Shown: positions 5,457 to 7,634 of the stretch, in pieces
Layout of the letters: the number at the start of each line of letters is the position of its first letter
Position numbering within the stretch: position 1 is the stretch's first letter
Notes under the pieces: generated by a model
The model's input: only the letters and a program-made list of their open reading frames with translations
What the model was told of the DNA's origin: nothing
Database searches by the model: none
Source: Gammaproteobacteria bacterium
Lineage (GTDB): Bacteria > Pseudomonadota > Gammaproteobacteria > Immundisolibacterales > Immundisolibacteraceae
DNA: 32,086 nt
NCBI GenBank assembly: GCA_003645395.1
Contig: QNFC01000002.1
Location: forward strand, 1-32,086
Direction: 5' to 3'
Position numbers and translations under genes: made by a program

Positions 5457-5888
5457 TTAGGTCAGAATTACCGTCTCAGGTTGCTGCGCCTGATGGGTGT
5501 GCTCTGGCCCAGCAAACACTTTTAGTTTGCGATACATCGCCCGACCTAACGGATTTTTTGGCAACATGCCTTTAACCGCAATCTCAATTACACGAGTCGG
5601 GTGGGTGTCGATCATTTTATTGAACGGAGTAGATTTCAATCCGCCAATATGTCCACTGAAACGGTGATACATCTTGCCAGCCGCTTTATTACCAGTAACC
5701 CGGATTTTCTCAGCATTGATCACCACCACGTAATCACCCGTATCCACGTGCGGGGTAAAGACGGGCTTATGTTTACCACGCAACCGTTTGGCGATCTCAG
5801 ATGAGAGGCGACCGAGCGTTTGCCCTTCTGCATCAACTAGCAACCAGTTGCGACTAACTGTTTCGGCTTTAGCACTAAATGTTTTCAT
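5457..5888 (-). CDS. rplM: 50S ribosomal protein L13 (uL13)
   Basis: [42 protein letters not shown]...[32 protein letters not shown]. Confidence 0.98.
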
Positions 5889-5963: not shown

Positions 5964-5992
5964 ATGCTACGAATCCGCTACCCCCTTGTCAA
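5964..5992 (-). promoter_or_regulatory. sigma70-type promoter of rplM-rpsI
   Basis: On minus strand TTGACA - 17 nt - TAGCAT, about 70-75 nt upstream of the rplM ATG. Confidence 0.75.
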
Positions 5993-6057: not shown

Positions 6058-6087
6058 AAAAAAAAGGCGCAACTGGGAAGTTGCGCC
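6058..6087 (-). terminator. Rho-independent terminator
   Basis: Minus strand GGCGCAACT-TCCC-AGTTGCGCC (perfect 9-bp stem, 4-nt loop) followed by T8. Confidence 0.93.
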
Positions 6088-6142
6088 TAATAAGGATGGA
6101 GGAATTAAAGAGGAGGATATGACCGGCCCTCCAGCCGACCAT
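6058..6142 (-). ncRNA. candidate ~85-nt small regulatory RNA with anti-SD-like CCUCC motifs
   Basis: Predicted RNA AUGGUCGGCUGGAGGGCCGGUCAUAUCCUCCUCUUUAAUUCCUCCAUCCUUAUUAGGCGCAACUUCCCAGUUGCGCCUUUUUUUU: 5' stem-loop, C/U-rich linker, perfect terminator; promoter immediately upstream. Confidence 0.62.
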
Positions 6143-6148
6143 GGATCA

Positions 6149-6177
6149 AGTATAATCAAGCGCATTGTGCAGTGCAA
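6149..6177 (-). promoter_or_regulatory. sigma70-type promoter for the sRNA candidate
   Basis: Minus strand TTGCAC (6177-6172) - 17 nt - TATACT (6154-6149); expected +1 near A6142. Confidence 0.65.
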
Positions 6178-6248
6178 CATTATTTTTATAAATAACATCA
6201 TGCGCCGCCGCATAACGTTTGCCATCAGGCATCACTGCCCTGAGGGCA

Positions 6249-6899
6249 TCATCCATCGAGAAGCCAGTTCTCAGCATACTTTTTAACTAACTGACGTAAC
6301 TCGTTAAGCTTGCCATGAAAAAAGTGGTCCGCCCCTTGAACCTGTTCGTAACTAATTGGCCCAAGTTGCCGCGTGGTCCATGCTTTAACCGCACACGGTT
6401 CGATAAGCTGATCCTCGCTGCCATGAATTAACAATCCGGGACACTCGACACTGGCTTCAACATCAAAATAGTCACGCGTCACCGCAGGAGCGACCAACAT
6501 TAAATGTTGCGCCGCACACTCGGCACTGACCCGCGCTGCGACATAGCCGCCAAAAGAAAACCCGACCAACCAAAGCGGACGACCGGGAAACTGCTGCCCC
6601 ATCGCTCCAATGACTGCTACCAGGTCATCTGCCTCACCATTACCCTCACCATATTGCCCCTCACTTGCCCCCACTCCGCGAAAATTGAACCGGGCAACCG
6701 CTAAATTTAGCGCCGCTAACTCCCGCGCAAGGCAATAGACCACCTTATTGTCCATCGTGCCGCCATGTTGAGGGTGCGGATGGCAAATTACCGCTATTGG
6801 CCGCGTTATCTGCGCCATATCCGGCACATCAATTCGGACCTCCAGCTTACCGACCGCACCATCTATTAGTTGGCTGGTTCCGTTTTTCTTCTGACTCAT
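6249..6899 (-). CDS. alpha/beta hydrolase
   Basis: CHPHPQHGGTMDNKVV, GFSFGG nucleophile elbow, HGSEDQLIEP, GADHFF. Confidence 0.88.
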   Translation of the reverse strand: MSQKKNGTSQLIDGAVGKLEVRIDVPDMAQITRPIAVICHPHPQHGGTMDNKVVYCLARELAALNLAVARFNFRGVGASEGQYGEGNGEADDLVAVIGAMGQQFPGRPLWLVGFSFGGYVAARVSAECAAQHLMLVAPAVTRDYFDVEASVECPGLLIHGSEDQLIEPCAVKAWTTRQLGPISYEQVQGADHFFHGKLNELRQLVKKYAENWLLDG

Positions 6900-6995: not shown

Positions 6996-7634
6996 ATGAA
7001 CCCCGACCCCCGTCGTCACTCAACAGTCGATCAACTGCTTATTGGCATACAGCAACTTGGCCAATCAAGGTCGGTAACAACAACGCCTTCGCCGGCTGAA
7101 CAGTGGCCCGAAACGCTCTTGACCGACCCTGAAAAACGCCACGTCACTGGGCTAATGCGGGTCAACCATGCCGGTGAGATTGCGGCACAGGGACTCTATA
7201 TCGGCCAGGCAGCAACCGCCCGAGGCGAAACTACACGCAACTTGCTGCGCAACGCTGGACAAGAAGAGCAGAACCACCTGCACTGGTGCCACCAGCGACT
7301 TACCGAACTCTCGGCGAAACCCAGTGCGCTAACACCAATATGGCATGCCGGTTCGATATTGATCGGCGGGTTAAATGGATTACGCGGTGACCGCTGGAGC
7401 CTGGGGTTTGTTGCAGAAACGGAACATCAGGTTGAAAAACACCTATCAAAACACCTAAGCCGCTTACCGCCAGGGGATCAACGTAGCCGCGCGATTATCG
7501 AGCAGATGATCAGCGATGAAGTTCACCACCGTGCTAGCGCCATCGAAGCAGGCAGCAGAGCCCTCCCCTGGCCCGTGCGGATAGCAATGAGAATTAGCGC
7601 CCGAGTAATGACAATAACCGCCTATCGTTTTTAG
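6996..7634 (+). CDS. coq7: 2-polyprenyl-3-methyl-6-methoxy-1,4-benzoquinone monooxygenase (Coq7)
   Basis: MRVNHAGEIAAQGLYIGQ, EEQNHLHWC, ETEHQVEKHL, DEVHHR: di-iron ligand motifs of the Coq7 family. Confidence 0.94.
   Translation: MNPDPRRHSTVDQLLIGIQQLGQSRSVTTTPSPAEQWPETLLTDPEKRHVTGLMRVNHAGEIAAQGLYIGQAATARGETTRNLLRNAGQEEQNHLHWCHQRLTELSAKPSALTPIWHAGSILIGGLNGLRGDRWSLGFVAETEHQVEKHLSKHLSRLPPGDQRSRAIIEQMISDEVHHRASAIEAGSRALPWPVRIAMRISARVMTITAYRF

Follow-up and report, generated by a model that had tools for sequence, protein, structure and literature searches.

The window, by which we mean the whole 32,086-nt stretch of gammaproteobacterial DNA analysed here, carries a genuine small RNA (sRNA) gene between coq7 and rplM. 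Its parts and neighbours are listed in Table 1.

Table 1. Features of the sRNA locus in the window.
Feature	Position	Strand	Basis
sRNA promoter (predicted), -35 TTGCAC 6177-6172, 17 nt, -10 TATACT 6154-6149	6149..6177	-	Sequence
sRNA gene, predicted transcript of ~85 nt	6058..6142	-	Fold z -3.65; congener identity; model R1 31.6 bits, E 1.8e-5
First hairpin (SL1), loop UGGAGG 6133-6128	6119..6142	-	Sequence and fold; stem changes in G003
Anti-SD motif 1, CCUCC	6112..6116	-	Sequence; kept in both congeners
Anti-SD motif 2, CCUCCA	6097..6102	-	Sequence; present in both congeners; placed by R1 on family core UCCUCCAUCC
Intrinsic terminator, stem 6088-6065, then U8	6058..6088	-	Scan; compensatory changes in relatives
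Separate rplM promoter TTGACA-17-TAGCAT, downstream of sRNA terminator	5964..5992	-	Scan; site shared by both congeners and by sRNA-free relatives
rplM (ribosomal protein L13), syntenic neighbour	5457..5888	-	Pfam PF00572
Alpha/beta hydrolase gene, upstream; syntenic neighbour in genus, family and order	6249..6899	-	Pfam; relatives
coq7, divergent upstream neighbour	6996..7634	+	Pfam PF03232

Sequence features

An earlier note, made from the letters of this stretch, had described a minus-strand promoter, an 85-nt unit ending in a terminator with U8, a 5' stem closing the hexaloop UGGAGG, and a linker with two CCUCC motifs resembling the anti-Shine-Dalgarno (anti-SD) sequence, the second of which (CCUCCA) is the exact reverse complement of the hexaloop. 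All of these are present in the sequence as it had placed them, and the promoter is conserved in the genus and in an order-level relative. The SL1 stem (6142-6134/6127-6119) has 9 bp including two G-U pairs, and the terminator scan counts 10 pairs in the terminator stem, among them an outer A-U. The minimum free energy (MFE) fold of the window RNA recovers both hairpins at -28.2 kcal/mol, with 0 of 200 shuffles as good; in this fold an extra U-G pair closes the SL1 loop and leaves a GGAG tetraloop. The scan tool does not list the sRNA promoter because TTGCAC has only 3 of the 6 consensus -35 bases. The genus version of this promoter is TTGCGC/TATACTT, with a matching site in G001 and G003, and TTGCA-17-TATACTT is kept in the order-level relative (G007). 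On the plus strand, an ORF of 55 aa, which has a perfect AGGAGG site, occupies 6119-6286; its frame is not conserved, and AGGAGG is the complement of the sRNA CCUCC.

Conservation within the genus

The sRNA gene has the same position in two other genomes of the genus. Their identity to the window is 79-88% over hairpin and linker and falls to about 40% in the spacer beyond the terminator, a difference that argues for conservation beyond chance. A covariance analysis of the region upstream of rplM had been proposed earlier, and compensatory changes were indeed found in both the SL1 stem and the terminator of relatives: the SL1 stem of G003 has an A-U to G-C change at the base of the hairpin and a G-U to G-C change, and the terminator stem shows several compensatory changes among the congeners. 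Both congeners have the linker CACAUCCUCCUCUUUAUUCCUCCAUCCU; the window departs from it by an A insertion and a C-to-U change immediately before AUCC.

The congener sequences are separated by one-base insertions and deletions that break the reading frames, so a protein on either strand is unlikely. Coding on either strand was rejected on these frameshifts, which also speak against conservation merely as coding sequence, the refuting outcome named in the earlier note. The conservation is of the RNA type and supports a discrete minus-strand sRNA gene with anti-SD CCUCC motifs.

In the linker of the window's genus both CCUCC motifs are open and an anti-SD hairpin of the CCAUC/GGUGG type is absent; judged by sequence, the genus has lost this hairpin. 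G007, the order-level relative, combines the promoter and gene order of the window with the typical family core and an AUCAUCC/GGAUGAU hairpin, and bridges the window's genus to the wider family. Since the CCAUC-[CUCCUUU]-GGUGG hairpin is absent from the genus and present in G007, the window copy is a derived variant. In the three genomes of the other genus of the window's family (L063, L064, L065) the sRNA is lost and the hydrolase gene extends to the rplM promoter.

The gammaproteobacterial family

A covariance model (R1) was built from 13 sequences of other genera, the window's genus being excluded. At E<=0.1 it had matches in 160 of the 291 genomes of the class, some 115 of them at E<1e-6, and it aligned with the window over the full model (Table 1). 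The family layout consists of a 5' hairpin, UCCUCC, a hairpin displaying CUCCUUU and a terminator; upstream of rplM in other gammaproteobacterial genera the unit reads UCCUCCAUCCUCCUUUGGUGG and ends in a GC-rich terminator with U8. The complete unit includes the 5' hairpin and an upstream promoter-like site, and sites scoring at least 10 of 12 were found in 58 of 95 members vs 6 of 95 shuffles.

Pairing and covariation figures were taken from a 97-member, largely pattern-free set; an alignment seeded with an exact 18-mer was set aside, its hairpin statistics being circular. Across the anti-SD hairpin (CCAUC/GGUGG) and the terminator of these 97 aligned members, 97.9% of cells are paired, and both-sided changes number 106 as opposed to 15 in shuffles. 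Covariation falls mostly in the terminator; the anti-SD hairpin is less variable but consistent, with U-G, C-G and U-A at one pair and C-G to U-A at another. The core UCCUCC-AUC-CUCCUUU-GGUGG is invariant in the family. The exact 18-base core occurs in records that include Thiocapsa, Thiothrix, Thioalkalivibrio, Sedimenticola, Chromatium, Beggiatoa, Thiomargarita and Thiodiazotropha. The anti-SD hairpin loop is CUCCUUU in 68 of the 97 members and shares CUCCUU with the 16S anti-SD sequence, ACCUCCUUA.

Compared with this family, the window matches R1 through its core, a GC terminator and a U tract, has coq7 upstream and rplM downstream on the same strand as the sRNA, and is without the CCAUC-[CUCCUUU]-GGUGG hairpin. 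In a phylum-wide control, R1 matched a few genomes outside the class, at 26-31 bits, so the placement of the window in the family rests less on its score than on synteny, promoter and motifs; by these features the window copy is a diverged variant, placed mainly by synteny. Six genomes from several genera of one family outside the class (G299, G331, G419, G431, G455, G471) have R1 matches in this range, reflecting either composition noise or a distant branch.

Relationship to described RNAs

The earlier note had recognised no known family. This stands insofar as the window copy passes no Rfam cut-off: a search of the window at the cut-offs returned a tRNA alone and no sRNA family, and a cut-off search of seven relatives returned no sRNA. 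It does not stand insofar as relatives exist. The sRNA goes with a large family of the Gammaproteobacteria whose own relatives are RF02278 (Betaproteobacteria toxic sRNA), Bordetella S17 and Burkholderia NcS27/bdhR1. Rfam has no entry for this gammaproteobacterial branch, which was found in dozens of genera.

With RF02278, which includes Burkholderia ncS03, ncS05, NcS27 and ncS62, typical gammaproteobacterial members share the core CUCCUCCA-CUCC-UGG and the terminator in colinear order. Most of them score 30-48 bits, below the gathering cut-off of 50, one at 41.5 bits being colinear along its length, whereas the window copy reaches only 21.1 bits. Of the two hairpins of RF02278, the first presents the second anti-SD motif; typical members have this hairpin, while the window has the terminator and no hairpin of the CCAUC/GGUGG type. 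All 35 RF02278 matches in the class at E<=1e-5 coincide with R1 matches. Two genomes in the class pass the RF02278 cut-off, and in three betaproteobacterial-type loci of one family (these two and a third, R1-positive) the sRNA lies within ~1.5 kb of coq7.

Bordetella pertussis S17 likewise lies beside coq7 and has a C/U-rich single-stranded Site 1, a loop Site 2 and a terminator (PMC11722255). It pairs with target 5'UTRs, its repression of BP2158 was proven with compensatory mutations in the pairing, and its authors likened it to RF02278 (PMC11722255). Unlike the present RNA, S17 is betaproteobacterial and has an active ~67-nt form cut from a 190-nt precursor (PMC11722255); the window copy differs further in having a GGAG(G)-loop hairpin and no Site 2 hairpin. 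NcS27, a member of RF02278, is described as regulating metabolic shutdown upon nutrient deprivation (PMC10987360).

The Neisseria sRNAs NmsR and NgncR_162-163 (RF02877) resemble the family in their order of hairpin, anti-SD single strand, anti-SD loop hairpin and terminator, and in being tandem siblings (PMC5362039, PMC9973317); mutation of the NmsR anti-SD motifs abolished repression of nearly all targets (PMC5362039). Homology is weakly indicated, however, with 28.6 bits for a typical member against the NmsRb model and one weak match (E 0.004) for this model over the class. With RF02877 (cut-off 52 bits) nothing in the window matched at E<=5, and no genome of the class passed the cut-off. 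The alphaproteobacterial mmgR (suhB, RF00519) and cuckoo RNAs also have a C/U-rich, anti-SD-like linker between two hairpins, but the window scores 24.5 bits against the RF00519 cut-off of 41 and the gene context is different, so that this likeness is probably an analogy.

Genomic context

Downstream of the sRNA, rplM is found on the same strand in 103 of the 160 family loci; coq7 lies upstream in 28 of the 160 and is divergent in 27. The coq7-sRNA-rplM locus is probably ancestral. A search of papers for an sRNA upstream of rplM found none. A second recurrent home is the tgt-queA intergenic region, with the sRNA on the opposite strand (L085, L114, L130, L144, L156, L157, L164, L166, L175, L243). 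Some genomes have tandem arrays of two or three sRNA copies: three are present in a Thiotrichaceae metagenome-assembled genome (L180:5771-6057), and double copies at G158:C83, G194:C27, G078:C80 and G266:C45. The loci away from rplM and the tandem copies point to action in trans.

Proposed function and alternative explanations

With gene anatomy, conservation, secondary structure from covariation in the wider family, synteny and independence from rplM observed here, the reading we favour (probability about 0.77) is a stand-alone, trans-acting sRNA that would pair with Shine-Dalgarno sequences and block ribosomes. It would represent, in diverged local form, the gammaproteobacterial branch of the S17/bdhR1 (RF02278) anti-SD superfamily. 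The sRNA would be transcribed from its own promoter and end at the strong terminator, and its exposed UCCUCC motifs would base-pair with selected mRNAs at their Shine-Dalgarno sequences, probably with the aid of Hfq, which is encoded in the window's genome, and so prevent ribosome binding. In typical members one motif is single-stranded and the second presented in the loop of the CCAUC-[CUCCUUU]-GGUGG hairpin; in the window's genus both lie in the open linker after the GGAG(G)-loop hairpin, which may partly mask them. Pairing of the CCUCC motifs with Shine-Dalgarno sequences had been suggested in the earlier note, and this idea finds support. By analogy with the characterised relatives, repression at ribosome-binding sites, Hfq dependence and a metabolic regulon may be expected.

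Anti-SD pairing over 7-8 nt has low specificity. The ribosome-binding sites of sdhC (5 genes located) and gltA, chosen as NmsR-type targets, were no more complementary to the core than those of recA (p 0.95 and 0.80), start calls being unreliable. The characterised betaproteobacterial relatives switch genes off by covering ribosome-binding sites, and the question is raised of how an RNA that mimics the ribosomal anti-SD sequence stays selective and non-toxic. The family now ties scattered sRNAs (Bordetella S17, the Burkholderia toxic sRNAs and, perhaps, NmsR of Neisseria) to a gammaproteobacterial branch at coq7-sRNA-rplM. Sulfur oxidisers abound in the lineages concerned, from which the papers searched describe no such RNA; the R1 model and a core motif are now in hand for it.

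For the window's genus we consider, as a doubtful extension, that the anti-SD hairpin was swapped for an SD-mimicking GGAG(G) loop that either masks the CCUCC motifs of the RNA itself, in cis or intermolecularly, or captures CsrA, making a switchable or dual-function regulator. Somewhat less probable is the self-sequestering switch or dimer of the earlier note, in which the UGGAGG loop pairs with the linker CCUCCA as a pseudoknot or between molecules and hides the anti-SD motifs until release. The complementarity is exact over 6 nt, loop and linker are unchanged in the three congeners despite the stem changes, and the window RNA has a second fold at -27.9 kcal/mol, close to the MFE. Nevertheless, a GGAG loop occurs in the first hairpin of only 3 of the 97 members, all three being genomes of the window's genus, and refolding is predicted for the window sequence and not for G003 and G001. 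Loop and linker, invariant in three sequences (too few for a test), show no covariation, and pairing of all six loop bases would leave no connecting nucleotide, so that at most five pairs are likely. The switch is not supported.

Capture of CsrA by the GGA of the first hairpin loop, with the RNA as a decoy, is very unlikely. A looped GGA is the type of site bound by CsrA, and CsrA is encoded in the window's genome; yet Csr/Rsm decoys carry several GGA-loop hairpins where the window has one, and the GGA loop is not kept in the wider family. A single GGA loop is weak evidence of a CsrA site.

Slightly less probable again is a role in cis, as leader or attenuator of the rplM-rpsI operon, in which the terminator would halt transcripts begun at the upstream promoter as long as no signal opened it. 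The sRNA does lie directly upstream of rplM on the same strand in 77 of the 97 members (the largely pattern-free set), but at a variable distance of 90 to 714 nt; it is found at loci without rplM and in tandem too, and no conserved antiterminator was seen. Attenuation of rplM was rejected on the separate rplM promoter, which follows the sRNA terminator in the window and the congeners and is present in three same-family genomes without the sRNA; with this promoter below the terminator, the sRNA is no attenuator and forms a separate unit. Most likely, then, it is a separate unit acting in trans.

Finally, a plain terminator of the upstream hydrolase gene with a small ORF on either strand and no sRNA function can practically be dismissed: ORFs are present on both strands, but the congener indels break their frames, the plus-strand AGGAGG merely complements CCUCC, the minus-strand ORF passes through the terminator, and the linker is conserved too, beyond the terminator alone.

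As a minor observation, the window's assembly holds a second, partial rplM-like match (G000:C77:7469-7585; 67% identity over 39 aa), possibly from bin contamination.
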